35,685 nucleotides of DNA from the IMG/VR virus record IMGVR_UViG_3300004369_000058, positions 1 through 35,685 of that record. One strand, 5' to 3'. The stretch comes from a virus. Each line of letters opens with the position of its first letter. The first letter of the stretch is position 1. The notes below the pieces were generated by a model that was not told the DNA's origin, did no database searches, and was given only the letters and a program-made list of their open reading frames with translations. Below, piece after piece: positions 4,322 to 35,685 of this stretch. The position numbers were made by a program, and so were the translations under genes.

Positions 4322-4352
4322 TATTGAGATAGGGTTAATAATTGGAATATAA

Positions 4353-5768
4353 ATGAATTATTTTTATGATAGACAAATAAGAAGATATATACAGCAATTC
4401 ATAAGAGTTTTTAGTAACTTTAGCTGTCAAATGGGTATAGATGATTTAGGTAAACCCTTTTATCAAACCATTCCTGTTAGATATGGAGATCTAAGCAGAC
4501 AAGTTTCTCACATCGTTAAAGAAAACTCAGAAAACAAAATTTCTACAGTGCCTATGATGAGCGCTTATGTAACAGGATTAAGAATTAGTCCTGATAGGAG
4601 ATCAAAACCTAGTGAGCGAAATTTTGTGCAAGTTAAAGAAAAGTTTTATAATAAAGACACTAGACAATATGAAGACAAGCCTGGTAATTATTACAGTGTG
4701 GAACGTCATATGCCTGTTCCCTATGATATGACAATGAATTTAGATTTATGGACTAGCAATACTGAACAAAAAATGCAGATCCTTGAACAAATATTAGTTT
4801 TGTTTAATCCTGTTTTAAATTTAAACTCTGATGATAATCCTTTAGACTGGTCTAGATTAGGATACATGGTACATACTGATATAATTTGGTCTAGTGCTCA
4901 AATACCACAAGGTGTAGAAAATGTAATTGATATTGCTACCTTAACATTCGACATGCAAATTTATATTAATCCACCCGCAAGAGTAAGAAAACAAACATTA
5001 ATACATACTATTTTGATGGACTTACAAGCACTAGATACAAACAAAATAGAAGAGTGGAAAGCTAACAATTTATACTTAGAAAATCAACATCAAGAATATA
5101 TTATTGTAGCACAAAAGGGATTCAAGGTAAAAGTAAATTGTGATAACACAGTAAGTCTTATAGATAGACAAAATAGAAATGAAGTTAACAATGAAGCTTA
5201 CCGTTGGGATACATTATTTAAGTCATATGGTACACTTAATGAAAATATTAGTGTATTAAATCTAGTTACTAGTGATAATGGATATATAGATGGAAATGAA
5301 ATATTAGGAACTTTAACTTATAATGAAAATAATCCTAATTTATTAAATGTAACTTTTAATCCTGATACTTTACCAACGACAACTTTAGATCCGGTATTAA
5401 AATTCATTGATCCTACTGTAAATTATCCAGGAGATGGCACACTAGATAATCCAGATAATGGACAAAGATATATAGTAACAGAAGATATCTCAACTACAGA
5501 TAACTGGAATATAGGTGGATTTACTGCTTATAAAAACAGCATCATTCAATATGATGGAAATGTTTGGACAATTGACTTAAATAGTTCTAGTGCAAATTTA
5601 GGGAAATATATAGAAGATGGATATGTAGATTCTTCATATGTAAATCAAAATAAAGTTTCAAGGTTAACAAATTTAGAAGATAACTATTTGTATGAGTTTG
5701 ATGGGGAAAATTGGATTTATTCTATTTGTAAAATATACGATGAAGGATTATGGCGAATTTACCTATAA
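4353..5768 (+). CDS. gp15: Tail sheath stabiliser and completion protein gp15
   Basis: 471 residues. The N-terminal 230 match the gp15 family: MNYFYDRQIRRYIQQF-RVFSNF resembles the T4 start YFYN-FRRY-FSN, followed by MPVPYDMTMNLDLWTSN, QILEQILVLFNPVLNL and FDMQIYINPPARV. In T4, gp15 forms the hexameric ring that caps the tail tube and sheath and joins the head. T4 gp15 is 272 residues, so the last ~240 residues are an addition: beta-rich segments with DNGQRYIVTEDIS and IIQYDGNVWTIDL, of the kind seen as decorations on virion proteins. The start is preceded by TTGGAA. It is followed 7 bases on by the Nudix gene. Confidence 0.88.
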   Translation: MNYFYDRQIRRYIQQFIRVFSNFSCQMGIDDLGKPFYQTIPVRYGDLSRQVSHIVKENSENKISTVPMMSAYVTGLRISPDRRSKPSERNFVQVKEKFYNKDTRQYEDKPGNYYSVERHMPVPYDMTMNLDLWTSNTEQKMQILEQILVLFNPVLNLNSDDNPLDWSRLGYMVHTDIIWSSAQIPQGVENVIDIATLTFDMQIYINPPARVRKQTLIHTILMDLQALDTNKIEEWKANNLYLENQHQEYIIVAQKGFKVKVNCDNTVSLIDRQNRNEVNNEAYRWDTLFKSYGTLNENISVLNLVTSDNGYIDGNEILGTLTYNENNPNLLNVTFNPDTLPTTTLDPVLKFIDPTVNYPGDGTLDNPDNGQRYIVTEDISTTDNWNIGGFTAYKNSIIQYDGNVWTIDLNSSSANLGKYIEDGYVDSSYVNQNKVSRLTNLEDNYLYEFDGENWIYSICKIYDEGLWRIYL

Positions 5769-7733: not shown

Positions 7734-9797
7734 TTAATTTGAAAAGGCTATGGCATATGCTATAGGATCATCTACATTGTAGAAACAACAAAATGGCATA
7801 GCTTTCCATAAACATTCACTTGCATTATATCCTACTAAATATTTATCTGTTTGAGCAGGTGTACCTTGATCTATCAAACAACGTAAAACTAGTTTTCCTG
7901 TTATATCCAAACAAGTATTATAATATCCATAATTAGCTGTTACAGTATCAAAATTCACACACGATGTTGTACTTACATCCTGTCCTATACTTATTTCTCC
8001 AGATGTATCACAATATGTTACTCCTGTGCCCCCACATAAATGAGCTCTAACTTCATTAGGACTAGATCCAGTAAACGTAAATATTCCAGAAACGTTGTCG
8101 TATGTAAAACTTCCATCTCCTCCACAATCACAGGCACTTACTGCATCTCTTACTCTGCAATCTAAATAATATAAATTAGTACTACCTTCTGTTAATTCAT
8201 CTGTGTTATGATCATATAAATCAAAGCAAATAGTACCAGTAGTATTATCATATGTAATATCACATATACCACATATTGCTGCTCTAGATCTTGCATCTGT
8301 GTAATATAAATTTATACATTCAGTAATATCACAAGTAAAATGGTTACTAATATCACTAACTTGACCATAAAGACAATTTACTACTAAATCTTTATTTAAA
8401 TTCCATCTATCATTTACACTATTATAATAGAAGCAAGCATCTGCACCGCAGACTGTTAATCCTGCTCCATCTGCTTGTGTTGGATTAACAGCACAACATG
8501 CTAATGTTATATTTTTATCTGCTATATCAACTGTTGTGCTATTAACTGTCGTAGTTGTTCCAGTTACTGTCAGATTTCCACAAATATATACATTACTTGC
8601 AGTAACGTCATCACTCAATAATCTACCACTTACACTGACATCACAAAATGTTACATTACTAGTACAACTTACATCTTGCCCAATACTAATTTCACCATTA
8701 GTATTGCAGTATGTAACTCCTGTGCCACCACATAAACTATTTCTAGCTCTGCAATCTAAATAATATAAATTAGTACTACCTTCTGTTAATTCATCTGTGT
8801 TATGATCATATAAATCAAAACAAATAGTACCAGTAGTATTATCATATATAATATCACATATACCACATATTGCTGCTCTAGATCTTGCATCTGTGTAATA
8901 TAAATTACAAGTACCTTCTGTAAGTGCATCAGTAGTATGGTCATCTAAATCAAAACAAATAGTACCAGAGGCATTATCATATATAATATCGCAAATACCA
9001 CATAAACTATTTCTAGCTCTGCTATCTAAATAATATAAATTACAAGTACCTTCTGTTAATTCATCTGTGTTATGATCATATAAATCAAAGCAAATAGTAC
9101 CAGTAGTATTATCATATATAATATCACATATACCACATAATGCTGCCCTAGATCTTGCATCTGTGTAATATAGGTTAGTACTACCTTCTGCAAGTGCATC
9201 AGTATTATGGTTACTTATATCACTAATTTGACCACAAACATAAGGTACTACTAAATTTTTATTTAAATTCCAAGTGTCGTTAGGTTGATTATAATAAAAA
9301 CATGCATTGGCACAACTAATATTAAATCCTGCACCATCGGTTTGAGTAATATCAGTTGCATCGCTTGCTATAGTAAAGTTAATATCTGAAATATTTAAAT
9401 TAGTGGATTTAATATTGGTATTTGTACCATAAACTGTTAAATCACCACAAACATCTAGAGTATTGTTAACAGTTAAATTAGTAACATAATCTGCAAGTTC
9501 AAAACAGCAAGAGGTTATGTTATAAATTATATGCTTAGTTACATTAACAGGATCAATAAAACAAAAATCTTCTAAATCTGAAACAGTTTGCGGAATAATG
9601 TGCCATGCAGTATCATAATACTCTATAGTACAAAGATCAGAGTTATGTCTTATACTACCTGTTGCACTAATACCACCTACTGGATTTCTTTGACTGATTG
9701 AACCACTAGGTAGAATTAAGTTACCACTATTATCAATTTGTAAAATTTGGTTACTAGTAGTTAATGAGCTTAATTGGTGATTTAAATTAATTGCCAT
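7734..9797 (-). CDS. Long Cys-rich repetitive tail fibre
   Basis: 687 residues starting MAINLNHQLSSLTTSNQ. The body is built from about six repeats of some 44 residues with the core H-x-TD-x-L-x-EG-x-x-NLYY-x-D-x-R-x-R, then CGICDI-YDN-x-x-GTICFDL. A larger ~90-residue module (GNLTV-x-G, DGAG, ACFYYN, WNLNK-LVV, DISNH) occurs twice. These are fibre-shaft repeats known from other phages, where positions used here by Cys are Ser, Thr, Ala or Gly. I count 46 Cys in 687 residues (6.7%), against two in the 389-residue capsid protein. The C-terminus (about 590-687) is different and may be the tip. DNA repeats follow the protein repeats and could recombine. No chaperone gene is obvious nearby. Confidence 0.88.
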   Translation of the reverse strand: MAINLNHQLSSLTTSNQILQIDNSGNLILPSGSISQRNPVGGISATGSIRHNSDLCTIEYYDTAWHIIPQTVSDLEDFCFIDPVNVTKHIIYNITSCCFELADYVTNLTVNNTLDVCGDLTVYGTNTNIKSTNLNISDINFTIASDATDITQTDGAGFNISCANACFYYNQPNDTWNLNKNLVVPYVCGQISDISNHNTDALAEGSTNLYYTDARSRAALCGICDIIYDNTTGTICFDLYDHNTDELTEGTCNLYYLDSRARNSLCGICDIIYDNASGTICFDLDDHTTDALTEGTCNLYYTDARSRAAICGICDIIYDNTTGTICFDLYDHNTDELTEGSTNLYYLDCRARNSLCGGTGVTYCNTNGEISIGQDVSCTSNVTFCDVSVSGRLLSDDVTASNVYICGNLTVTGTTTTVNSTTVDIADKNITLACCAVNPTQADGAGLTVCGADACFYYNSVNDRWNLNKDLVVNCLYGQVSDISNHFTCDITECINLYYTDARSRAAICGICDITYDNTTGTICFDLYDHNTDELTEGSTNLYYLDCRVRDAVSACDCGGDGSFTYDNVSGIFTFTGSSPNEVRAHLCGGTGVTYCDTSGEISIGQDVSTTSCVNFDTVTANYGYYNTCLDITGKLVLRCLIDQGTPAQTDKYLVGYNASECLWKAMPFCCFYNVDDPIAYAIAFSN
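7950..9240 (-). repeat. Internal repeats of the fibre gene
   Basis: DNA blocks of about 130 bases recur inside the fibre gene, visible as repeated TTCTGTTAATTCATCTGTG (plus strand) at about 8187, 8782 and 9052, and repeated CACATATACCACAT. They encode the 44-residue shaft repeats and are nearly identical in places, suggesting recent internal duplication. Confidence 0.8.
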
Positions 9798-14821: not shown

Positions 14822-15868
14822 TTACATTCCGTTATTAGGGCTAGTTGTATTTCCAGCTGCATCACTATTCTTTGGAGTTGCTACACTAGAAAGCTTTTGT
14901 TTGGCTCCAGGAACATTTACATTACCTGTATTCATAACTTTAGCAGTTGTAGTTAGTTTTTTACCTTCTCCGCCGCCATCTTTCATCATGCTTTGGTTTA
15001 CTGTTCCACCTGGTTTGTTTGAACCTTTTGCAACAGGACTTGTGCTTTTTTCACTAGTATTATAAGGCATTTTAACTTGAGTTAAAGTTGCTGCTTCATC
15101 TACCATCTCATAAGCTTCGTCAGTTTTTTCTTTAGCTTTTTTGCCTTTTGCTTGAGGGTCCACTTCTTGATCTCGTTGATACATGGCAGCTTTATTTTTT
15201 CTATGGTGTTTTCTTTTTAAAGCTTCATCTACGGAAGGGTCCACTTCTTGATCTCGTTGATACATGGCAGCTTTATTTTTTCTATGGTGTTTTCTTTTTA
15301 AAGCTTCATCTACGTAGTCGTAATCTTCCTCTAGATCTTCATCTTCGTCATCAGATAAATCTAGCTCTACTTCTTCGTCTACACTTTCTTCTTCATATTC
15401 AAAACTATCCATCATATCTTCTTCTGAACTATCCATGGCGCCCATTTCTTCGTCACTCATGTCCATGTCACCTTCTGGCTCTTCCATATCACCACCTAAA
15501 ATAGCTTGAAAACTTTGTCGTAATTCTTCAATAGCGTCTTCTACTTTTTCAAAATTACTTTCTATCTCATCTGGCCCTGCTTCTTCTCCATCCATTTCTG
15601 GATCAACATCCATAGCCATGTCATCAGCTACATCACCTTCTGCATCATCCATGTCCATGTCCATTGCAGGCTCATGATCTTCTTCTGCAATTTCATCAGA
15701 ATTAATTTCTTCTTCGTAACCTTCAAGATCTTCATCTTGATCCATTAAATCTTCATAAACAGTACGAGCCTTTTCCACAAATACATCATGGAGCAAATCA
15801 CTCGCTTTTTCTTGTTCCTCGTTTATAATATATTCGAGTACTTGTTCTAGTTTATCTCGTGTGGTCAT
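14822..15868 (-). CDS. Acidic prohead core protein (gp67/gp68 position)
   Basis: 348 residues. A helical start (EQVLEYIINEEQEKASDLLHD, EKARTVYEDLM) followed by a very acidic Asp/Glu/Met-rich stretch resembles T4 gp67 in layout, and the position between portal and gp21 is that of T4 genes 67 and 68. It is far longer than either (80 and 141 residues). Near residues 185-240 a basic 26-residue segment (DEALKRKHHRKNK...) is present twice in tandem, from a perfect 78-base DNA duplication. The C-terminal 80 residues are Gly/Ser/Asn/Thr-rich and disordered. TAGGAG precedes the ATG. A core/scaffold role is inferred from layout and place. Confidence 0.65.
   Translation of the reverse strand: MTTRDKLEQVLEYIINEEQEKASDLLHDVFVEKARTVYEDLMDQDEDLEGYEEEINSDEIAEEDHEPAMDMDMDDAEGDVADDMAMDVDPEMDGEEAGPDEIESNFEKVEDAIEELRQSFQAILGGDMEEPEGDMDMSDEEMGAMDSSEEDMMDSFEYEEESVDEEVELDLSDDEDEDLEEDYDYVDEALKRKHHRKNKAAMYQRDQEVDPSVDEALKRKHHRKNKAAMYQRDQEVDPQAKGKKAKEKTDEAYEMVDEAATLTQVKMPYNTSEKSTSPVAKGSNKPGGTVNQSMMKDGGGEGKKLTTTAKVMNTGNVNVPGAKQKLSSVATPKNSDAAGNTTSPNNGM
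15156..15314. repeat. Perfect 78-bp tandem duplication, 81-bp period
   Basis: 15156-15233 and 15237-15314 are identical by eye and separated by three bases. The duplication stays in frame in the prohead core gene and doubles a 26-residue basic segment (VDEALKRKHHRKNK... to ...DQEVDP). Confidence 0.92.
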
Positions 15869-26238: not shown

Positions 26239-26881
26239 TACAAGAGTAAAATTACAACCTTATGAATATATAGAAAATCCAGTACGTAAGGATAATGGTG
26301 TTAGTGCATTAATAGAAGATTCACCTATTATGCGAGATTACTTAGGTAAAGATAAAGGTACACGTGGTATTATATTTCCATATACTCCAGTATTTGCATT
26401 AAGCGCAAGCAGTACATATAATGAATATCAAACTACACATAGTAATTATAATGTATTAGCTTATAGTATGAGTAATGTAAGTCCTTTTACCATCACTGCT
26501 CAATTTACTTGCGGGACATTAGAAGAATCTAGGTATAGTATGGCTGTAATACATTTTTTTAGAACAGTAACTAAATCTAGGTTTGGTATAGATGATGAAT
26601 TTAGAGGAGCACCTCCTCCTTTACTAAAATTTAGTGCATATGGAGATTTAATTATTAGAAATGCACCAGTAGTAGTTGGAAATTTTACAATGACATTTAG
26701 TGATGATGTAGATTATGTTGATGTAACTTTTCCTAACACAACATTCTTGTCTAGGATACCAGTAATTTTTACTATTTCTGTGGAGCTAAAACCACAATAT
26801 CTACCAACTAAACAATTTAAAGAATTTAGTATTACAGAATTTGCTAACGGAAATTTAATTAAAGATAAAGGCTTTATATAA
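26231..26881 (+). CDS. Baseplate tail-tube cap/initiator, gp48/gp54 family
   Basis: 216 residues. The segments FPYTPVFALSASSTYNEY, SRYSMAVIHFFRTVTKSRFG, GAPPPLLKFSAYGDLI and DDVDYVDVTFPN resemble, from memory, the gp48/gp54 proteins of T4-like marine phages, which close the baseplate hub and start the tail tube. T4 gp48 and gp54 have 364 and 320 residues, so this is short, and I cannot decide between the two. Its stop overlaps the next ATG (TAATG). The place between the nucleotidyltransferase and the gp53-like gene fits a baseplate cluster. Confidence 0.68.
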   Translation: MADTRVKLQPYEYIENPVRKDNGVSALIEDSPIMRDYLGKDKGTRGIIFPYTPVFALSASSTYNEYQTTHSNYNVLAYSMSNVSPFTITAQFTCGTLEESRYSMAVIHFFRTVTKSRFGIDDEFRGAPPPLLKFSAYGDLIIRNAPVVVGNFTMTFSDDVDYVDVTFPNTTFLSRIPVIFTISVELKPQYLPTKQFKEFSITEFANGNLIKDKGFI

Positions 26882-27177
26882 TGGCTTATTTAGAAAAAAC
26901 TAATTTTTATAACAATACTACTTTAAATAGCAAATTTTTAGAATATTGGAACTCACCTTATTTAAATACAAGTTCAGTGAATACAGAAATAGTAACTATA
27001 ACTCATAATTACGAAAATAGACCTGATTTATACAGTTATTATTTGTATAATACACCGAGATATCTATGGACATTTAAATATTTAAATCCAAGTGTTTTAC
27101 AAAATCCAATTTGGGATTTCAAAGCCGGGACAGAAATACGTATTTTTAGGCCTAACTACCTTGCTAAAGTAAATTAA
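26881..27177 (+). CDS. gp53: Baseplate wedge protein, gp53-like
   Basis: 98 residues; T4 gp53 is 196. The C-terminal half, ITHNYENRPDLYSYYLYNTP then LWTFKYLNPSVLQNPIWDFKAGTEIRIF, follows the LysM-like gp53 pattern (YxxRPDL, LWW/TF, DP-x-x-x-KAGT-x-x-x-I). In T4, gp53 holds wedges together around the hub. The N-terminal part is reduced. Coupled to the gene before it and followed one base later by the hub gene. Confidence 0.7.
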   Translation: MAYLEKTNFYNNTTLNSKFLEYWNSPYLNTSSVNTEIVTITHNYENRPDLYSYYLYNTPRYLWTFKYLNPSVLQNPIWDFKAGTEIRIFRPNYLAKVN

Positions 27178-27178
27178 T

Positions 27179-29299
27179 ATGGTTACAGTTGTAAGTAAAA
27201 CCGAAAACACAAGTAATTGGTTAGATAATGTGTTGGAAACAGTTTTTAGGAACCATACATATGTTATACAATTTGCTATGGTACATCCTAAAAATTTGAA
27301 AGATACAAGTAGTGTAGAAGATGGTGGTATTATAATTGCACAAACAGGTGTTACAAGCAAATTTCAAATAGAAAACTTAAATTTAGAAAACTTTGTTGGA
27401 TGGAATAATACAAGTAGAAGCGCAATAGCATTACAAGGAACCATTGATATATTTGAACCCTTGGGGTTAAATTATTATGATGCTATTTTTAATGCTAGTT
27501 TGGATTTGGGTATAAAAAACCATTTACGAGCAGGGTATGTATTAAGTGTTACTTGGGCTGGTCAAGATGAGTTTGGAATATATGAAGCAAATATCCCAGT
27601 GTATCGTTGGCCTATTCTTGTTACTGGAGTAAGATCTGTACCTGATAAACATGGAACATCTCATTCTATAGATTTTGTTAGTGTCACTAATGCTGCTTTT
27701 GATGTTTTCACAGAAAAAATTTCACAACAAATTACTATTAAAGGCGTAAAAACCTATAATGAATTTTTAACCCAATTAGAAGCAAATATAAATCAACATC
27801 AAAGTGATAAAGAATTGGAAACTGTTGCTTATCCTGACAAATATGTTTTAGGTATCAAAGATAAGAGTCAAAATAATGGAACAGGTGAAGAAGTTATAAA
27901 AAATTATAATTTTGCAGTAGGAAAATATAAAAAAACAAATAAATTACAAGTAGAATACAATAGTGGTACTGGATTTGATTTTACTATACCTGCAGGAAGT
28001 ATGATAAGCGAAATACTTAGCCTTGCATATATGAATACTGATGAAGCTCAAAAATCTGTATCTACTGTTAAAAAAACAGGAACAAAAAACCGAGCAAATG
28101 ATGAAACTGCAGTAGATTCCGGAAGTGGTTTGCCTATGTTTTTTAAAGTAGATGGAGATGTAGAATATTTAGAATACGATAGCTGGCGTAACGAATATCA
28201 GAAATTGGTAACATATAATCTTATACCCACAATAGAAGTAGGATTATTGTATGATGCAAATAATTATAACAACTTAATTGTTGATAAAGCGTATCAAGAA
28301 AAAAGACTCAAACAAATAGAAAAATATACACTACTTAAAAAACGATACGATTATTGGTATACAGGAGCAAACACAAGTGTTCTAAATTTTAATTTTGATC
28401 TAAACAATGCTTGGGTTGCTATGCAACCTATAGATAGAGGTACTGTAAATTATCCTGGTAACAACATGGGTATTAGGGAATTTAATGGAAATATTTCAAT
28501 AGATTACGAAAGGAAAAGTTTAGATAAATTAAAACAATTAAAAACAGACCAAAAATCTTTAACTAAAAGACTTGAGCAAGCAAAAGAAACAGGAGATGGA
28601 AATAGTATAAAGGAATTATCACAGCAGATACAAGATAATAAGCGTAAACAAGAACAAAAAAGACAAGAAATAATTAGTTTAAGAGAAAACAAAGAAGCAA
28701 GTACACTAGGTAATAATAAAAATCAACCTGCAAGTACAAACACTCCTACTAAATCCGATAGAGTTAAAAAACCAAAATACATTGAAGAATATTTTTATAA
28801 TCAAAGCACAGGTAAAAGCACTGAGCTACCTGTGAGATGGAAGGAAATAGATTTAAGTACTTACACTGGATTTTTAGACTCTGGAGAATTGGCAGCTAGT
28901 TCTGTAATGATGGGTGCTGTATATGCCAATTTAATTGGAGAAAAAAGTCTTGTTAAAATTAATTTAGATATTGTTGGAGATCCCTATTGGTTTGGTTTTA
29001 CTCCTAATTTTTTAAGTGGAGAATCTTTTGCTAACGATATTGAATTAAGCAAAGTTTATGCAGATTACAAAAAAGGAAGTCATTTATTTTACTTTACAAT
29101 CAAATTACCAAAAGAATCACAGTATATTGATCCTCAAGAAGGAGATTATAAATCCAGTGTAAGTATTATACAAGGTTTGTATCAGGTAATAAAGGTAAGA
29201 TCTACTTTTACAAATGGACTTTTTACTCAGACCTTAGAAGCTATAAAAGATGTAAATACCAATTCACAATTTATTAACAAAATAGAAGAAATAGAATGA
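27179..29299 (+). CDS. Baseplate hub protein (gp27 position)
   Basis: 706 residues. I do not recognise a diagnostic motif, but the place directly before the gp5-like spike gene, with an ATGA overlap, is that of the hub to which the spike attaches. The N-terminal 200 residues are beta-rich (IALQGTIDIFEPLGLNYYD, AGYVLSVTWAGQDEFGIY) and reminiscent of hub/VgrG-type barrel domains. Residues about 440-510 are a charged coiled coil (KSLTKRLEQAKETGDGN, IQDNKRKQEQKRQEI), followed by a beta-rich C-terminal domain with GDYKSSVSIIQGLYQVIKV. T4 gp27 is 391 residues, so this is much larger. A fused wedge/hub role cannot be excluded. Confidence 0.55.
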   Translation: MVTVVSKTENTSNWLDNVLETVFRNHTYVIQFAMVHPKNLKDTSSVEDGGIIIAQTGVTSKFQIENLNLENFVGWNNTSRSAIALQGTIDIFEPLGLNYYDAIFNASLDLGIKNHLRAGYVLSVTWAGQDEFGIYEANIPVYRWPILVTGVRSVPDKHGTSHSIDFVSVTNAAFDVFTEKISQQITIKGVKTYNEFLTQLEANINQHQSDKELETVAYPDKYVLGIKDKSQNNGTGEEVIKNYNFAVGKYKKTNKLQVEYNSGTGFDFTIPAGSMISEILSLAYMNTDEAQKSVSTVKKTGTKNRANDETAVDSGSGLPMFFKVDGDVEYLEYDSWRNEYQKLVTYNLIPTIEVGLLYDANNYNNLIVDKAYQEKRLKQIEKYTLLKKRYDYWYTGANTSVLNFNFDLNNAWVAMQPIDRGTVNYPGNNMGIREFNGNISIDYERKSLDKLKQLKTDQKSLTKRLEQAKETGDGNSIKELSQQIQDNKRKQEQKRQEIISLRENKEASTLGNNKNQPASTNTPTKSDRVKKPKYIEEYFYNQSTGKSTELPVRWKEIDLSTYTGFLDSGELAASSVMMGAVYANLIGEKSLVKINLDIVGDPYWFGFTPNFLSGESFANDIELSKVYADYKKGSHLFYFTIKLPKESQYIDPQEGDYKSSVSIIQGLYQVIKVRSTFTNGLFTQTLEAIKDVNTNSQFINKIEEIE

Positions 29300-30480
29300 A
29301 TCAATCAGGAATGTACAACGAAGTTTTATCTTCGTATGGTCACAAAAATAGTTTAAAAATAGCTAACTTTGATAGTTTGCATTTAGGTAAAATTAAAGAC
29401 AACCGAGATATTCTTAAACTTGGTAGAGTAAAAGTTTATTTGTCTAGTAGTAATACTAACGAAAGTGATGAAAGCAGTTGGGTAACGTGTCTGTGGAGCA
29501 GTCCTTTTGCAGGAAGCACCAAAGAATATGACTTAGGAAATAGTGTTACATTCGACGATACACAGAAAAGTTATGGTTGGTGGGGGGTACCTCCTGATTT
29601 AGATAACTATGTTGTAGTAGCTTTTCCTAAAGGTATGGAAACTGGAGTCGTTTTAGGATGTTTATTCCAAATTGATGTCAATCATAGTTTACCTGCTTTG
29701 GGTTATAGTGAAGAGTCAGGAGATAAACCTAAACCAAAAACAGAAAAAAACAGAAAAGTTCAAACCGAATCAGATACTAAACTAGCTGATCATACACCAT
29801 TTCTTACTCATTTAACTACACAAGGTTTAGACAAAGACAAATATAGAGGTCCTACAAGCAGTAGTGCTAGAAGAGAAACTCCTAGTCATGTATACGGATT
29901 TTTAAGTCCTAGACAACACCAGTTGGTTATAGATGATGGAAAACCTGTAGATAACAATAATTATGTAAATGCTCGAGAAGATAGTCAAATACGATTAAGA
30001 ACACATAATGGTATGCAAGTGTTAATGCATGCCGAGAAGAATGTTCTTTATATTAATAATGCTGATGGTAGCTGTTGGTTAGAAATGACACCTGAAGGTG
30101 ATTTACATGTTTATAGCAAAAAAAATATAAGTTTTAATGCAGAAGAAAATATAAATTTTCATGCCAGTAAAAATGTTAATATAGAAGCAAAACAAGAAAT
30201 GGTTATAAGAGCAGGCACAAAAATGATTGTAGAAACTGGAAATGACAATTTAAATATTTACAGCGGTAAAGAATTATTATTGTATGCAACTAGTCAAGGA
30301 CATATAAAATGTGAAGGTAATTTGAGAGAAACTGCTCCAAGAATAGATTTAAATGGACCACCTGCTGCCAAAGCAGAAGAGAAAAAATTACAACCATTGA
30401 GTAGTAATGTAAAAGTAACTCAGGGTATTGTAACTGAAGCTCCTGAGCATGAACCTTGGAAAGGTCACAGTGTAAAATGA
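29296..30480 (+). CDS. gp5: Baseplate spike, gp5-like (OB fold plus beta-helix, no lysozyme domain)
   Basis: 394 residues. The N-terminal OB-fold region has GRVKVYLSSS, WVTCLWSSPFAGS, YGWWGVPPDLDNYVVVAFP and GVVLGCLFQ, the gp5/VgrG pattern. After a linker, QIRLRTHNGMQVLMHAEKNVLYINNADGS leads into a C-terminal repeat of short strands (KKNISFNAEENINFHASKN, VNIEAKQEMVIRAGTKMIVE), the triple-stranded beta-helix needle. In T4 gp5 a lysozyme domain sits between these parts; here it is absent and a GH24-type domain is encoded by the next gene. The gene starts within the stop of the hub gene and ends in an ATGA overlap. Confidence 0.9.
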   Translation: MNQSGMYNEVLSSYGHKNSLKIANFDSLHLGKIKDNRDILKLGRVKVYLSSSNTNESDESSWVTCLWSSPFAGSTKEYDLGNSVTFDDTQKSYGWWGVPPDLDNYVVVAFPKGMETGVVLGCLFQIDVNHSLPALGYSEESGDKPKPKTEKNRKVQTESDTKLADHTPFLTHLTTQGLDKDKYRGPTSSSARRETPSHVYGFLSPRQHQLVIDDGKPVDNNNYVNAREDSQIRLRTHNGMQVLMHAEKNVLYINNADGSCWLEMTPEGDLHVYSKKNISFNAEENINFHASKNVNIEAKQEMVIRAGTKMIVETGNDNLNIYSGKELLLYATSQGHIKCEGNLRETAPRIDLNGPPAAKAEEKKLQPLSSNVKVTQGIVTEAPEHEPWKGHSVK

Positions 30481-31238
30481 CATTACTGACTGTAGCGCCT
30501 ACACAAATAGAATATGATATATTCAATGCAGAATCTGCAGCATATGACCAAACTAAAATTAGTTTGGGTAATTTAGCAATAAGTGAACAAGGAATAAATC
30601 ATATATTAAGCTTTGAAAGATATAGGGGAATTAACCAATATATTAATGGAAGAGAAGTTATAGGATATGGACATCAAGGTTTTGCAAAATATGGATTGAC
30701 TGAAGAAGAAAGTTATGAGCTATTTAAAGATGATATAAAGAAAACCAGTTTAGACATCAAACACACTTTAAGATTTACTTCTGTAGAAAAGCTTACACAA
30801 GGTGAGTTTGATGCATTAATGAGTTTACATTTTGACCAAAAACAAATAAAAACTTTACAAGGAAATTCAGGAACATACGATTTAATTACTGCACTAGAAA
30901 AAAATGATCCTGTAAATTTTGCAAGTATACTACATGATGCTACAAATAGTTATAAAAGAAGATCACAGGATGCAGACATTTTTATACTAGCAAATTATGT
31001 TAATTATGTATCTAGAGAATGGTTAAAAAATGAAGGCATACAATGGTTACGAGAAAAATATGGAAATTATCCAAGTAGCAATTTATATAATACAGTAGAA
31101 CAAGCTACCCAGGCTAAAGTTTCATATTACAGAAGTATTAAAAAATTTTTTAAAAATGACAGTGAATCTCACAATTTAAAAACAAAAGAAATAGTAGATC
31201 AGTTATCATTAGAACCTAGATTAAATGTCATTCAATAA
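30477..31238 (+). CDS. GH24 lysozyme-like protein, catalytic residues partly missing
   Basis: 253 residues from the ATG at 30477, overlapping the spike stop. Residues about 38-150 follow the GH24 (T4 lysozyme/lambda-type endolysin) pattern: ISEQGINHILSFERYRG, EVIGYGHQG, GLTEEESYELFKDDI, LTQGEFDALMSLHF, YDLITALEKNDPVNF and SYKRRSQDADIF. The catalytic Glu is kept (SFER), but the Asp and Thr of the E-D-T triad appear as Ile/Asn and Val. It may therefore be a structural remnant of the gp5 lysozyme domain or use other residues. The C-terminal 100 residues are helical and unassigned. No signal peptide; likely part of the spike complex. The stop overlaps the convergent gene by 11 bases. Confidence 0.75.
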   Translation: MTLLTVAPTQIEYDIFNAESAAYDQTKISLGNLAISEQGINHILSFERYRGINQYINGREVIGYGHQGFAKYGLTEEESYELFKDDIKKTSLDIKHTLRFTSVEKLTQGEFDALMSLHFDQKQIKTLQGNSGTYDLITALEKNDPVNFASILHDATNSYKRRSQDADIFILANYVNYVSREWLKNEGIQWLREKYGNYPSSNLYNTVEQATQAKVSYYRSIKKFFKNDSESHNLKTKEIVDQLSLEPRLNVIQ

Positions 31239-32319
31239 CCAACCTAAATCCTACATGGAATTCTCCTTGATCACTACTACTTGTATCAAATTTATCGCAA
31301 GGGACTACATTTAACCCGTTACTACTTCCACCAGCTTTTTCATGATAACCCGGATAACCTGTGTCAGCCAAGTATTCAACCACATTGTTACTCATTCCAT
31401 ACAAATTAAAACTATTAGGAGCATATCTTTTTACAGAAAAAATTACATCTCCTCTTTTTCTTTTGCTAGGTAGTTCTCCTGTTTCTGTACCTGCAGAATG
31501 CAAATTACTACCAGATTGACAGGCCCAAGTCCATTCTGATTTTGTAGGTAACCTTACCTGTAAACCTGTGTACTGTTTTACTTGATTAATGTAAGATTGC
31601 ACTTCATTAAATTTCATAAAATGAGCAGGATTGTCATCTCTTTTGTTTCTTTCAGTAAATTTATCCTTGTCCATAAATCTTCCATATTGTCCTACAGTAA
31701 TTTCTGTCTGACTCATCCATAAAGTAGTTTCAGGAATAGGTACAAAGGTTATACCTGTTTGTTGATGAGTCCAAGTAGTACCAATATCCTTGTAATAATT
31801 CATACCTCCAGGAGATCGAGTTTCTGGTATGTCAGATTCAGGACTAGCTTTAATTAAAACATATTTTTTATACTTTGTTTTAAAAAAGCCTTTGTCTACT
31901 TCTGTATGGACACCTGCCACACTGAATCCACTTAGTACTGTATTAGAACGTGCATGGTTAAAGTTTGCAGTTGTCCTTTTAGAGCTTTGCATTCTACCAC
32001 TAGTACCTGTATGATTGATCTCTTCTTCGTACCAGGTATTAACTTGTGACTCTTTAGACAAACTCATAGCGCCTAAAGCTTCTGCTTTAGCTTGATTGAG
32101 TGCCATGTTTTCATGTTCTAACCACCTACTAACTCCAACAAAATATCTAATACCGTCCTGTTCAAATTCAACTTCATTGACCCAAAACGGTACAGAATTA
32201 TTGTTACTAGCGGAATCACTAAATGTTTTTGTAACGCTTATACCTAAGCTTACGTCTCCAGCAACAACAGATTGACTAGATAACAAACTTAAAGCTAATG
32301 CTATACAAAACTTTTTCAT
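31228..32319 (-). CDS. Exported protein with FGE-sulfatase (SUMF1) fold and LPP20-like domain
   Basis: 363 residues. MKKFCIALALSLLSSQSVVA is a signal peptide with cleavage likely after VVA. Residues about 43-160 (PFWVNEVEFEQDGIRYFVG, ENMALNQAKAEALGAMS) resemble the domain in the neighbouring lipoprotein. Residues about 195-363 match the FGE/C-lectin fold: TEITVGQYGRFM, NPAHFMKFNEVQSYINQV, LQVRLPTKSEWTWACQSGS, NSFNLYGMSNNVVEYLAD and the final HVGFRLVIE. The active Cys pair of true formylglycine-generating enzymes is not apparent, so it is probably a binding protein, in the periplasm or at the surface. It is the last gene of an early operon, 8 bases after the lipoprotein gene. This fold also serves as the variable domain of diversity-generating retroelements, but I see no reverse transcriptase or template repeat here. 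Confidence 0.85.
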   Translation of the reverse strand: MKKFCIALALSLLSSQSVVAGDVSLGISVTKTFSDSASNNNSVPFWVNEVEFEQDGIRYFVGVSRWLEHENMALNQAKAEALGAMSLSKESQVNTWYEEEINHTGTSGRMQSSKRTTANFNHARSNTVLSGFSVAGVHTEVDKGFFKTKYKKYVLIKASPESDIPETRSPGGMNYYKDIGTTWTHQQTGITFVPIPETTLWMSQTEITVGQYGRFMDKDKFTERNKRDDNPAHFMKFNEVQSYINQVKQYTGLQVRLPTKSEWTWACQSGSNLHSAGTETGELPSKRKRGDVIFSVKRYAPNSFNLYGMSNNVVEYLADTGYPGYHEKAGGSSNGLNVVPCDKFDTSSSDQGEFHVGFRLVIE

Positions 32320-32327
32320 AATACCTT

Positions 32328-32858
32328 TTAGTTAGACATTGCACGATTAATAGCATTTTTAAGATCTCTTGCATTAATTTTCATAACTGCAAAAGCTCTG
32401 TATCCATATTTTTCTCCTCTGTCTACATCAAGCTCAGTGTAAGTTTCATGCACACTAATACTTTGCATTACACTTCGACTTACAATTTTTGCCATTTCTG
32501 TGCCATTACGAAATTGTAACACTGTATTTTCCGTTTCTCCCTCACTGGTCATTTTTTGAGCAAAACTAATATCTACATCTTGACGTACATGCTCACTCAA
32601 ACGAAATGTTGCATCTCTCATGGCGTCTTTTTTAGCCTCACGTTCAGTATCAAATACAAAACTTTCTCCTACTTGGAAATATTGATCATCTTCTTCCCAA
32701 AAACCTTTACTAGTCCAATCGGGACGTACATCTTTAATTTCCTGATAATAACGAAGTCTATCAACATTATCACTAGGATCTTTGGGCAAAACAGGATCTT
32801 TTGTACAACCTGAGATAGCGGCTGCAGTAACAATAGCTAAGATAAAATACTTGTTCAT
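32328..32858 (-). CDS. LPP20-like lipoprotein
   Basis: 176 residues. MNKYFILAIVTAAAISGC is a lipoprotein signal with lipobox ISGC, so Cys18 would be lipidated; TKDP follows, with Lys not Asp at +3 and outer-membrane sorting likely. The mature part, RPDWTSKGFWEEDDQYFQVG, FDTEREAKKDAMRDATFRL and EKYGYRAFAVMKINARDLK, has the pattern of LPP20/FlgT-like envelope domains (YF-VG, E-A-x-x-x-A-x-x-x-A, later Y-x-A-x-A-V-M-K). AAGGAG precedes the ATG. The same domain recurs in the next gene, so the two proteins probably work together at the host envelope; exclusion of other phages is a guess. Confidence 0.83.
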   Translation of the reverse strand: MNKYFILAIVTAAAISGCTKDPVLPKDPSDNVDRLRYYQEIKDVRPDWTSKGFWEEDDQYFQVGESFVFDTEREAKKDAMRDATFRLSEHVRQDVDISFAQKMTSEGETENTVLQFRNGTEMAKIVSRSVMQSISVHETYTELDVDRGEKYGYRAFAVMKINARDLKNAINRAMSN

Positions 32859-32871
32859 TTGGTTCTCCTTG

Positions 32872-33051
32872 TTAATTATAAACTTGTGGTTTGCACTCCT
32901 TAAACCCTTTAAGGACAGTGCCGTCAGATTTAGCGTCAGTAATCAAAGCATCACGAAGCTTTGCATTTGACATTCTAGGCAAGCTAACAATATACTGTTT
33001 GCCATTTGCATGCCAAACCTGATAATCAATGAGCTTGAGTTTTCTAGCCAT
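32872..33051 (-). CDS. Hypothetical protein, 59 aa
   Basis: Start set at the ATG at 33051 (MARKLKLIDYQVWHANG), because CAGGAG lies 7 bases before it; the frame extends further to 33132 but inside the preceding gene. The 59 residues form a probable beta-alpha unit (YQVWHANGKQYIVSLPRM, SNAKLRDALITDA). Begins one base after the stop of the 107-aa gene, so it is co-transcribed and coupled. Function unknown. Confidence 0.78.
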   Translation of the reverse strand: MARKLKLIDYQVWHANGKQYIVSLPRMSNAKLRDALITDAKSDGTVLKGFKECKPQVYN

Positions 33052-33052
33052 T

Positions 33053-33376
33053 CTATACTCCTGGATAGGTGTTATGAGATTTTTGCACAAAATGCCATTT
33101 TTCCGGAACTGGATTGCCATATTTGTCTTCATCTAAGGCAATATAGCACCGAGTTTTAAGCACTGTGCCGTAGCGGAAACCTGACTCCAAACACATTCCA
33201 TTGCTTGCATACATTGGAGTAGATACCCAAATTTTGTGGGGAAATTGTGACATAGGTCCTTCAGTCACATCATTTTTGCTATACTCAAACAAATTGCCTG
33301 AGTCTAGCTCGCGGAAGTTACCAATAATTGAACCGTCACCAGTATTGAAATAAGTGGAGTGGGATGCAAAAGCCAT
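33053..33376 (-). CDS. Hypothetical protein, 107 aa
   Basis: 107 residues, MAFASHSTYFNTGDGSIIG, rich in aromatic residues and probably beta (SQFPHKIWVSTPMYASNG, GFRYGTVLKTRCYIALDED). AGGAGA precedes the ATG. First gene of the early operon behind the promoter at 33417-33445. No motif I recognise; no signal peptide. Confidence 0.75.
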   Translation of the reverse strand: MAFASHSTYFNTGDGSIIGNFRELDSGNLFEYSKNDVTEGPMSQFPHKIWVSTPMYASNGMCLESGFRYGTVLKTRCYIALDEDKYGNPVPEKWHFVQKSHNTYPGV

Positions 33377-33416
33377 GTTATCTCCTATCAGGAGTTAATA
33401 ATTAACTGTTCTAATA

Positions 33417-33445
33417 AGTATAACACCTTTAGAGGATAAAGTCAA
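33417..33445 (-). promoter_or_regulatory. Early sigma-70 promoter of the envelope-protein operon
   Basis: Minus-strand TTGACT (33445-33440), 17-base spacer, TATACT (33422-33417); downstream ACAGTTA and a GTTAAT-ATTAAC dyad precede the ribosome binding site of the gene at 33376. Confidence 0.85.
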
Positions 33446-33450
33446 CACTT

Positions 33451-33939
33451 TTATAAATTAGCAAAATGATTTTTACAATAGTAATTTACAACATGATTTT
33501 CATATGCATTGTACCAATCTTCCTCAGCCTTTTTTGTATTCTTTTCAGTAATAATATCCTGTGCAATACGAAGGAAATGCCGTCCATATACAGTGTCCAA
33601 AATACCCAAAGACCATACATAACCTTCTACATCCTGTGGGTGGTTGAACTCTTCTTCGTTAGCCTCAAGCATCCAGCGAATACCCTCACGGGTGTTGCCA
33701 GCACCTGACAAAATGTTAATAGCCACAGTGGTTTGTACTGCACGAACATTAGCAAGATTAGCAACCTCTTGGCGCTCTAGCTCTTCTTCAACCTCACGAG
33801 CTAACCACTGAATCTCAGCTTCAAGTTGAGCCTCACTTAATCCCTCGTAACGTGTAAGTGAAGGACGAAAGCCTCTAGCATCCTTGTGGAAGTCGGAGAT
33901 GATTGAAAGTAGTTCCTCACGCTTGCTTAATTCAAACAT
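33451..33939 (-). CDS. Hypothetical early protein, 162 aa
   Basis: 162 residues, acidic and helical: MFELSKREELLSIISDFHKD, RGFRPSLTRYEGLSEAQLEAE, IQWLAREVEEELERQE. The start with a Phe-Glu-Leu-Ser/Thr-Lys-Arg-Glu pattern and the R-P-x-x-x-x-x-x-x-L-S-x-x-x-L-E-x-E stretch are familiar from uncharacterised early proteins of several phage groups. CAGGAGA precedes the ATG, and its own sigma-70 promoter lies at 33982-34009. No catalytic motif visible. Confidence 0.8.
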   Translation of the reverse strand: MFELSKREELLSIISDFHKDARGFRPSLTRYEGLSEAQLEAEIQWLAREVEEELERQEVANLANVRAVQTTVAINILSGAGNTREGIRWMLEANEEEFNHPQDVEGYVWSLGILDTVYGRHFLRIAQDIITEKNTKKAEEDWYNAYENHVVNYYCKNHFANL

Positions 33940-33981
33940 GGTGTCTCCTGTGTGTGTTGCGTTTGCCTAACTGTTCCATAT

Positions 33982-34009
33982 AGTATAGCAGGTTGACTAA
34001 AAAAGTCAA
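33982..34009 (-). promoter_or_regulatory. Early sigma-70 promoter with palindromic -35 region
   Basis: Minus-strand TTGACT (34009-34004), 16-base spacer, TATACT (33987-33982), then CAGTTAGGC. The -35 is one arm of GGTTGACT-5-AGTCAACC (33991-34011), which could be an operator or, with the T-rich stretch on its right, a plus-strand terminator. Confidence 0.82.
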
Positions 34010-34033
34010 CCCCTATTTTTATCTTTTTTAAAA

Positions 34034-34278
34034 TTATTTTGCCATCACTGTAGCATACCAAACTGGATCAGCATCACGCAGGATACCTACTGGTGTTTCG
34101 CTGTTGTCCAGCTTCTCAAAGTATTCTGCTGGAGTGTGGTTGGCGATGAGTTGCTTGACGAACTTGGCTTTGGTGAGATTGGGTTACGATACTTGAAACG
34201 AGCAACAAACTTACGCTCATTGTTAATTGTGTAGTAGAGCCATCCTGCTGAGTAGCTGAACAATGCTTTCTCAAACAT
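34034..34278 (-). pseudogene. Small early gene with a frameshift near 34174-34185
   Basis: From the ATG at 34278 (CAGGAGA upstream) the frame reads MFEKALFSYSAGWLYYTINNE, RKFVARFKYRNPIS and then turns into a Ser/Pro/Thr-rich tail that stops at 34087. In the adjacent frame the expected continuation is present: TKAKFVKQLIANHTPAEYF, EKLDNSETPVGILRDADPVW, YATVMAK, stop at 34034. Together they make a coherent protein of about 81 residues with the look of small early proteins of T4-like marine phages (VARFKYR ... FVKxLxxNxTPxEYF). One base appears to be missing near the CCCAATCTC stretch; sequencing error or real mutation cannot be told apart. Promoter at 34322-34349. Confidence 0.78.
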
Positions 34279-34321
34279 ATCGTCTCCTGTATGTGTTGTG
34301 GATCGCCTAACTGATAATAAT

Positions 34322-34349
34322 ATTATACAGCCTTTGTAAAAAGAGTCAA
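34322..34349 (-). promoter_or_regulatory. Early sigma-70 promoter
   Basis: Minus-strand TTGACT (34349-34344), 16-base spacer ending AAAGGCTG, TATAAT (34327-34322), then ATTATTATCAGTTAGGC, shared almost exactly with the promoter at 34971-34998. Confidence 0.88.
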
Positions 34350-34356
34350 TCTTTTT

Positions 34357-34896
34357 CTAAAGTTTATTTGGCTGGCGTTTACAAAGCTCCGCAAAGGATG
34401 AAACTTCGTACCCCCACCATTTAAAATGTCTTTGTGGTATACCAGTAAAGGTTGGCTCACCGTCATAACAAGTACTCCTCTCTATGATTATTTCTATATA
34501 TAAGATATGGCGATAGGCTGAATAAGGTATATAAAAGTAATGAAATTGATCCAATATTTTGTTATAGGCTATGACACGTAAATCTCCAGTTTTAGTAGTA
34601 ACGGATCTTACCATGAACGAGTTGGTCCATTGTCCTTTTTCCTTGTTATTGTTACGAGCAGATGAAACAACTGTCTTAGCATCTGTTCCGTCATCAAAAT
34701 CTCTGCCTACAGCACTATCACCGCCAAAGTCACCTATAGCAGACATTGCAACTTCTGCAACTGTTTCTCGTTGTACAATGCCCATTTCAGTGAACTTTAT
34801 TAGGTTGTCAATTTCACAGGCATTTAGGTTTAGGTATGGTGACAATTCTCGAACCATTCGTACATCATATTGTACAGCGTTATCTGTTGTAGCCAT
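34357..34896 (-). CDS. Hypothetical early protein, 179 aa
   Basis: 179 residues that I do not recognise. The N-terminus (MVRELSPYLNLNACEIDNLIKF) is helical; the middle has a Gly/Asp-rich stretch (AIGDFGGDSAVGRDFDDGTD) and then SSARNNNKEKGQWTNSF; the C-terminal half is beta-rich with many Tyr (YNKILDQFHYFYIPYSAYRHI) and ends with a Trp/Cys-containing segment. No signal peptide. It has its own early promoter and an unusual 23-base palindrome in its leader. Confidence 0.75.
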   Translation of the reverse strand: MATTDNAVQYDVRMVRELSPYLNLNACEIDNLIKFTEMGIVQRETVAEVAMSAIGDFGGDSAVGRDFDDGTDAKTVVSSARNNNKEKGQWTNSFMVRSVTTKTGDLRVIAYNKILDQFHYFYIPYSAYRHILYIEIIIERSTCYDGEPTFTGIPQRHFKWWGYEVSSFAELCKRQPNKL

Positions 34897-34917
34897 TGTA
34901 TTATCCTGTTGAGGTTA

Positions 34918-34940
34918 ACCGGACGAAATTTTCGTCCGGT
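34918..34940 (-). promoter_or_regulatory. 23-base palindrome in the leader of the 179-aa gene
   Basis: ACCGGACGAAA-T-TTTCGTCCGGT is nearly a perfect palindrome, G+C-rich in an AT-rich region, between the promoter and the ribosome binding site. No T run follows on the minus strand, so it is more likely an operator or mRNA hairpin than a terminator. Confidence 0.65.
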
Positions 34941-34970
34941 ATTTGTTTGCATTGCCTAACTGATAAAAAT

Positions 34971-34998
34971 ATTATACAGCCTTAGTAAAAAAAGTCAA
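34971..34998 (-). promoter_or_regulatory. Early sigma-70 promoter
   Basis: Minus-strand TTGACT (34998-34993), 16-base spacer ending TAAGGCTG, TATAAT (34976-34971), then ATTTTTATCAGTTAGGC. It lies just after the prs stop and drives the 179-aa gene. Confidence 0.88.
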
Positions 34999-35006
34999 AT
35001 ATTTTT

Positions 35007-35685
35007 TTACACAAAGAGGCTACTAATAGATTCCTCGTTAGTAACTCGACGGATCGCTTCTCCGAATAAATTTGCGACACTTACCTGTCTTACCCTACAA
35101 CCATCTTCACAATGATCTGCAATCGTATCAGTGATAACTAGCTCTGTTAAAACGCTTTCTCGTACCCTAATGCAGGCACTACGACTTAATACACCATGTG
35201 TGATGTAGGCTTTTATATCAATTGCACCCGCATCCATAATGGCTTTTGCAGCATTGCATAATGTACCTCCACTGTCTACGATATCATCCACAAGGATAGC
35301 ATGCCGGCCTTCCACATCGCCAATTAAATGCATTACTTCACTCTTACCAGCTGCAGGTCTACGCTTGTCAACAATAGCAATGTTGCCATGGAAAGCGTCT
35401 GCAAACTTACGAGCACGGACAGCACCACCTGCGTCTGGACTTACAAACACATACTCACTATTGTCTTTTTGATGTTCTTTAATATCTCTTGCAAAGATAA
35501 TCCTACTGGTAAGATCGTCAACAGGAATGTCAAAGAACCCTTGTATCTGTCCTGCATGTAAATCCATAGTCAATACACGGTCAGCACCTGCTGTGGTAAG
35601 TAGGTCAGCAACTAGTTTTGCTGTAATTGGTGTGCGGCTGGCACTCTTGCGGTCTTGTCTAGCATATCCGAAATATGGAATGACT
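35007..35685 (-). CDS. prs: Ribose-phosphate pyrophosphokinase, 5' part beyond the window
   Basis: 225 C-terminal residues are visible; the frame is open to the right edge and the true start lies outside. It makes PRPP from ribose 5-phosphate and ATP. Marks, in order: IPYFGYARQDRKSASRTPIT (ATP-binding loop), TMDLHAGQIQGFFDIPVD, VSPDAGGAVRARKFAD, IVDKRRP, the PRPP-binding loop ILVDDIVDSGGTL, and the full C-terminus IRRVTNEESISSLF, all close to bacterial Prs. PRPP feeds nucleotide and NAD synthesis; other T4-like phages pair prs with an NAMPT gene for NAD salvage, which is not seen here but could lie upstream. Confidence 0.97.
   Translation of the reverse strand, partial: VIPYFGYARQDRKSASRTPITAKLVADLLTTAGADRVLTMDLHAGQIQGFFDIPVDDLTSRIIFARDIKEHQKDNSEYVFVSPDAGGAVRARKFADAFHGNIAIVDKRRPAAGKSEVMHLIGDVEGRHAILVDDIVDSGGTLCNAAKAIMDAGAIDIKAYITHGVLSRSACIRVRESVLTELVITDTIADHCEDGCRVRQVSVANLFGEAIRRVTNEESISSLFV

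Follow-up and report, generated by a model that had tools for sequence, protein, structure and literature searches.

What would two proteins do that a phage is predicted to send to the envelope of its host, and that it encodes directly beside its tail-tip genes? The question is raised by IMG/VR-type virus record IMGVR_UViG_3300004369_000058, which we analysed over its whole length of 35,685 bases (the window). We take the record as a fragment of a larger genome, and by its sequence the virus is a jumbo T4-like myovirus. A cassette of four genes encodes, as its last two products, a putative lipoprotein of 176 amino acids (aa) and a 363-aa protein with a Sec-type signal. Both appear to carry an LPP20-like domain, and the larger protein adds a formylglycine-generating enzyme (FGE)/C-type-lectin domain that has changed hands together with the tail genes. 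We propose tentatively that the pair excludes superinfecting phages.

The putative exported pair and its common domain

Both proteins are predicted to be exported to the envelope, to judge by signals that can be read directly from their sequences. The 176-aa protein has the lipobox ISG/C with Cys18 and a Thr at +2, which by the +2 rule presumably places the lipoprotein in the outer membrane. In the 363-aa protein, the signal is of Sec type and ends in VVA-G. Among the 37 listed open reading frames (ORFs) these two were the only ones flagged for export by a simple hydropathy scan, and the 59-aa protein of the cassette, judged separately, has no signal peptide in its translation. An earlier note on this DNA had named this lipobox and signal peptide, and both were confirmed.

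The same note described a motif common to the two proteins. We found it as P44-x-W46, Y59-F-V-G62-x-S64 and A73-x3-A77-x2-E80-A81 in the 363-aa protein and as P46-x-W48, Y60-F-x-V-G64-x-S66 and A75-x3-A79-x2-D82-A83 in the lipoprotein; the motif stands, but the element given as E-x-A is actually E-x-x-A. The N-terminal domain of the 363-aa protein (residues 22-165, the N-domain) and the mature lipoprotein are 23% identical over 116 residues (two-sequence BLASTP E 0.001). Their alignment gave a Z of 8.0, as high as none of 2000 shuffles, and the lipoprotein was the best match to the N-domain among the 36 window proteins tested. The 59-aa protein gave a Z of 4.4 against the N-domain, by chance or as a remnant of an LPP20-like domain.

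PF02169 (LPP20) domains were collected from 185 genomes of one class, reached via a Thiotrichaceae genome, in 24 of which there were matches; 30 domains, among the matches listed, entered the comparison by hhalign. We found that the LPP20 profile matched the N-domain with a probability of 88.8 (E 2.5e-6, 111 columns), which agrees with an earlier guess that this domain resembles LPP20. The similarity between N-domain and lipoprotein was present here also (probability 42.6, E 2.5e-4, 117 columns), and a combined profile of the two reached 90.9 against 26 of the 30 LPP20 domains. Unrelated phage profiles gave at most 0.6 and 16 column-shuffled profiles at most 1.9. Neither protein matched PF02169 itself (gathering cut-off 25.9 bits) at E<=10, and the orthologue of the 363-aa protein in IMG/VR contig L008 scored 16.3 bits (E 0.014, profile positions 1-88 of 97), below the cut-off. 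The N-domain and lipoprotein profiles had no match by sequence among solved structures. A lipoprotein model of low predicted local distance difference test score (pLDDT) ranked Lpp20 and Tip-alpha first and second of 350,542 chains (E 0.23 and 0.38), and its six top VIA entries were all Tip-alpha or Lpp20 (Z 5.1-5.5; the next, unrelated row 4.5). This suggests a domain that is LPP20-like without being a member of PF02169, strongly so for the 363-aa protein and weakly for the lipoprotein.

The 363-aa protein also matches Pfam PF03781 (FGE-sulfatase) with 39.1 bits against a cut-off of 23.3, and its L008 orthologue does so with 33.9 bits. The nearest solved structures of the FGE domain are TvpA (2y3c, E 1e-8), PorK/GldK and PvdO. 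Active FGEs have a copper-binding cysteine pair after GGS. By reading, this pair is incomplete: one cysteine, Cys341, sits near the second position in all three alleles, which also keep Cys267. The domain had been described as lacking the visible catalytic cysteine; the pair is indeed missing, but the conserved Cys341 qualifies that description. From the incomplete pair a catalytic formylglycine-generating enzyme was judged unlikely, and the domain looks non-catalytic. The FGE-domain proteins of two Microcystis phages (L028 and L029) and PHROG 18508 are labelled serine/threonine kinase or kinase, which is probably an old misannotation carried over.

Exchange of the FGE domain with tail genes

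The pair is adjacent, in the same cassette, in four other IMG/VR contigs (L002/L009, L003/L010, L004/L012 and L008; in L004/L012 the FGE gene is cut at the contig end). The survey of co-occurrence thus found the two genes always together, and neither the lipoprotein nor the N-domain had a match in named phages at the sensitivity used. Between the window and L002, most of the cassette shows 90-99% DNA identity; two spots drop to 77-78%, and part of the lipoprotein gene to 89%. Identity is 97-100% through the N-domain, then 60-65% in the FGE domain, about 67-89% through the lysozyme, the hub and the upstream tail genes, and again 97-100% left of position 26251. On the right, this mosaic block ends close to residue 208 in the 363-aa protein, at the FGE border. 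Since the drop begins at the FGE domain and low identity continues across the lysozyme/hub operon, the sequences indicate that FGE domain and tail-lysozyme/hub operon were exchanged together, as a single block, in this one close genome pair.

Synonymous divergence (dS) between the window and L002 is similar across the genes of the block, 1.12-1.44. Nonsynonymous divergence (dN) is highest in the FGE domain at 0.36 (0.27-0.47), compared with 0.17 (0.13-0.22) in the lysozyme, 0.19 in a 706-aa tail protein and 0.08 in the hub.

We examined 14 hub neighbourhoods of relatives, from nine named phages and five IMG/VR loci, two of the latter near-alike. In 12 a gp25-like gene follows the hub, directly or past one lysozyme gene or two small ORFs (gp25 was assigned by reading in the IMG/VR loci and the Vibrio phage). 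In five of the nine named jumbo phages the place between hub and gp25 is taken by a 162-aa gene, whose annotation reads baseplate hub subunit and (tail) lysozyme. The 253-aa lysozyme of the window occupies this hub-adjacent place and is therefore most likely a tail lysozyme. The cassette sits between the lysozyme and gp25, and the order in L002 is gp6, gp25, PRPP synthetase, cassette, lysozyme and hub (gp6 and gp25 by reading). An exported pair beside the hub was found in none of the 14 neighbourhoods.

Predicted timing and function

The strong sigma-70 promoter and the four packed genes reported earlier were both recovered, at the same coordinates, with intergenic gaps of 1, 13 and 8 nt. A scan of the minus strand from 29000 to 35685 found no terminator-like site. 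TTGACT-N15-19-TATAMT has six matches in the record where 0.20 would be expected, a count seen in no shuffle out of 100. All six are on the minus strand and in non-structural stretches only (0-0.5 kb and 33-35 kb). Immediately after the -10 box, three of the four right-hand promoters of the family have CAGTTAGGC, and the promoter at 33445 has CAGTTA. The promoter type fits early transcription of the cassette by the host polymerase. The T4-type late promoter TATAAATA was considered as a marker of late genes and set aside, since its two matches are fewer than chance and it is unusable for that purpose here. Two 74-nt copies, 95% alike, at 109-182 and 449-522 each contain a promoter of the TTGACT/TATAMT family and lie beside small minus-strand ORFs.

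In T4 the periplasmic protein Spackle, which is made early, binds the gp5 lysozyme and inhibits it (PMC7677548). Our preferred reading, with a probability of about one in three, is that the pair acts as an outer-membrane-tethered periplasmic binder that would exclude superinfecting phages, Spackle-like in action and apparently not homologous to Spackle. The lipoprotein and the FGE protein would be made early, and the lipoprotein would be sited in the outer membrane. There its LPP20-like domain may pair with that of the FGE protein, like the SHS2-like domains of the LPP20 family in FlgP rings, so that the FGE head would hang in the periplasm as a non-catalytic binder. By binding and blocking the tail tip of a related phage on its way in, most probably the tail lysozyme or the hub, it would exclude superinfection and would also protect the cell from lysis from without. 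Such a head would change with the tail genes because it must fit them or the versions carried by competitors. An action on the envelope, for example exclusion, had been suggested in the earlier note, and this general idea fits. A receptor as the target is less favoured, since the exchange of the FGE domain with the lysozyme/hub operon points to the tail tip, though physical linkage alone could explain it.

A bolder version, which we think rather unlikely, is a matched module of tail weapon and immunity. A lipoprotein-anchored, interchangeable FGE head would neutralise a tail lysozyme or hub that belongs to its own tail type, and the whole would be inherited as a block, so that a lineage excludes its own kind as in bacterial effector-immunity pairs.

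Several observations count against exclusion at the tail tip. The LPP20 profile matches the lipoprotein alone only weakly (probability 5.9, E 0.0064, 49 columns), and because of this its LPP20-likeness rests mainly on resemblance to the N-domain. The AlphaFold models are poor, with pLDDT 38.7 for the lipoprotein and 31.1 for the 363-aa protein. In the comparison with L008, divergence begins already inside the lipoprotein, and the dN/dS of the FGE domain, 0.43 (0.21-0.70), overlaps that of the lysozyme, 0.34 (0.22-0.51), so the contrast is weaker there. Throughout, dN/dS is below 1, with dS near saturation. There are three distinct alleles only; of the relatives, the two that cover the full gene as well as the lysozyme are contigs of 13 and 9 kb. 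With three alleles, fitted exchange and passive linkage are not separable. Plain adjacency predicts co-exchange and can explain it, as one crossover in conserved DNA carries the neighbours along. The residues of T4 Spackle that touch gp5 are conserved, not diversified, in the account given in the available part of PMC7677548. A general rule that minus-strand genes beside the tail lysozyme are exported found no support in PA5oct or SCTP-2, two relatives with minus-strand genes in this place, where the genes checked are without an export signal.

A host-receptor target is nearly as likely as a tail-tip target. The pair may act on the host surface, where the FGE head would bind, mask or disable a receptor or envelope complex and would vary with host surfaces, the link to the lysozyme operon being passive. 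This possibility is consistent with the export signals and the host-type promoter, with the FGE domain having diverged furthest within the block at the protein level, and with a block for which adjacency alone can account. FGE/C-type-lectin domains are moreover general ligand binders, as described in the available part of PMC5006420. Against it stands the mosaic edge between the window and L002, which lies at the FGE border as if a new head had arrived with its own tail-tip genes; this is suggestive only.

An imitation of the host's own LPP20-type lipoproteins, through which the pair would engage the upkeep of cell wall or outer membrane and, for instance, strengthen the envelope or postpone lysis during a long infection, is unlikely. 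The LPP20-like domain speaks for such a role, as does a gammaproteobacterium in which the gene for an LPP20 lipoprotein overlaps that for another lipoprotein (L085:776-1956), the latter by reading presumably LpoB/CsgG-like. However, in 369 gammaproteobacterial genomes (E up to 0.1) the N-domain profile had no convincing match, only eight weak partial ones judged to be chance, and the fast-changing FGE head is not accounted for. A role in the virion or in lysis, with the FGE protein packaged or aiding release like tail-tip lectins or those of diversity-generating retroelements (DGRs), is more doubtful again: the gene adjoins tail genes and the FGE fold serves receptor-binding variable proteins (available part of PMC5006420), but cleavable signals and a lipobox suit export rather than cytoplasmic assembly, and the cassette lies on the opposite strand behind a host-type promoter. 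That the FGE domain is itself the target of a DGR is very improbable and was rejected, even though its best solved-structure match, TvpA, is a DGR variable protein, since the record, itself a fragment, has no reverse transcriptase at E<=1 and no template repeat of the FGE 3' end among its largest repeat families, and the differences affect all codon positions (45, 45, 73), all base pairs and the whole domain without adenine bias.

Known systems, genomic setting and significance

T4 Spackle (gp61.3) resembles the pair as an early exported phage protein directed against a tail lysozyme of its own type, a timing and a function that are predicted here, and the convergent neighbour of the pair is most likely a tail lysozyme. 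In contrast, Spackle matures to 75 aa and is all-alpha, and the available part of PMC7677548 describes no lipoprotein partner or FGE domain. The Spackle family did not turn up in the Pfam and PHROGs scans, and no direct comparison to gp61.3 was made. LPP20, FlgP and FlgT (SHS2-like fold) share with the pair the motif P-x-W ... G ... A-x3-A, a whole-domain profile match to the N-domain, the lipoprotein form and a weak Lpp20 fold match; the pair differs in falling below the curated Pfam cut-off, in being phage-encoded and in having one copy fused to an FGE domain.

TagR carries an FGE domain and TagQ is a lipoprotein. As in PorK/GldK and in TagR with TagQ, the FGE domain of the pair would be an envelope part outside formylglycine chemistry. 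Those periplasmic proteins belong to bacterial secretion machines, as regulators or rings, and are not phage-encoded, and we know of no shared LPP20-like domain in them. TagQ and TagR also combine an outer-membrane partner with a periplasmic protein (available part of PMC10482370). TvpA and other DGR variable proteins, an FGE subclass of the C-type-lectin fold, provide the nearest solved FGE domain and have a variable C-terminal head, unlike the present case in which the record has neither reverse transcriptase nor template repeat and variation is not adenine-directed. Ltp of TP-J34 and Llp of T5 are reportedly phage-encoded envelope lipoproteins that exclude other phages, as we suppose for the pair. 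Both are single proteins and are not known to have an FGE partner.

The 363-aa protein matches 17 phage and 41 plasmid records by its FGE half only (for plasmids, 30 of the 41 among the matches listed), and had no relative in the genome contigs searched. The lipoprotein had one match in plasmids, at E 1, judged to be chance. Searches A1 and A2 were empty in 10 phage or virus records, a set without a positive control; in eight genomes A2 gave no match and A1 gave FGE-only matches in two. Contig L099, a phage contig that also carries the 107-aa gene, encodes a 203-aa signal-peptide protein (4175-4786) whose mature start weakly resembles the start of the LPP20-like domain over 16-24 residues only, with three profiles; this is a lead, not evidence.

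The capsid protein shares 66-73% identity with those of the jumbo T4-like phages Sinorhizobium Phosso, Vibrio 2.275.O, PA5oct and GAP32, among the matches listed, and PHROGs matches name portal, protease, capsid, sheath, late sigma factor, SbcC/D and baseplate genes in the record. The features of the cassette and its surroundings are collected in Table 1.

Table 1. Cassette, promoter and neighbouring tail genes, with positions in the window.
Feature	Position	Strand	Remarks
Sigma-70-type promoter TTGACT-17-TATACT	33417..33445	-	one of a six-member family in the record
107-aa protein gene, PHROG 23785	33053..33376	-	relatives at 11 IMG/VR loci and in 8 phage records
59-aa protein gene	32872..33051	-	ATG at 33051; 86 aa if the ATG at 33132 is used
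176-aa putative lipoprotein gene, LPP20-like domain, lipobox ISGC	32328..32858	-	
363-aa putative Sec-exported protein gene	31228..32319	-	signal 1-20, LPP20-like domain ~44-160, FGE/C-lectin domain ~199-363
Tail-lysozyme gene, 253 aa, Phage_lysozyme	30477..31238	+	convergent to the cassette; presumed target or partner
Baseplate hub, gp5-like OB-fold and needle part	29296..30480	+	phrog_13211 E 4e-43
Mosaic block, tail operon and FGE domain	26251..31695		diverged from relative; both flanks nearly identical there

Three further observations concern other parts of the record. At 34036-34278 on the minus strand the 80-aa protein MFEKALFSYSAGW... of L002, L008 and L099 is shortened to a 63-aa ORF by a frame disruption, either a mutation or a sequencing error. 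A 79-nt exact repeat occurs twice at 15155-15314, with a spacing of 81 nt, within a 348-aa ORF (14822-15868) adjoining protease and portal. Repeats of 135 nt (45 aa) lie at 8133-9222 in the ORF of a 687-aa virion protein (7734-9797).

No PADLOC defence family was found for the seven proteins submitted, no family in Pfam, PHROGs, NCBIfam or PADLOC describes the pair, and the literature searched held no recognised description of a lipoprotein with an LPP20-FGE partner. These searches agree with the earlier statement that no described phage system with this pairing was known to its author. The parts are of known kinds, and what appears to be new is the architecture and its linkage to a tail lysozyme. 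Should the target prove to be a host factor, the combination of an LPP20-like lipoprotein with an LPP20-FGE fusion is still without counterpart in the phage collections searched. If exclusion at the tail tip is correct, the pair would add to Spackle another architecture, apparently unrelated to it, that blocks tail penetration. The specificity of exclusion could then sit in a swappable C-type-lectin head that moves along with the tail-tip genes, and jumbo phages would gain a directly testable exclusion system.

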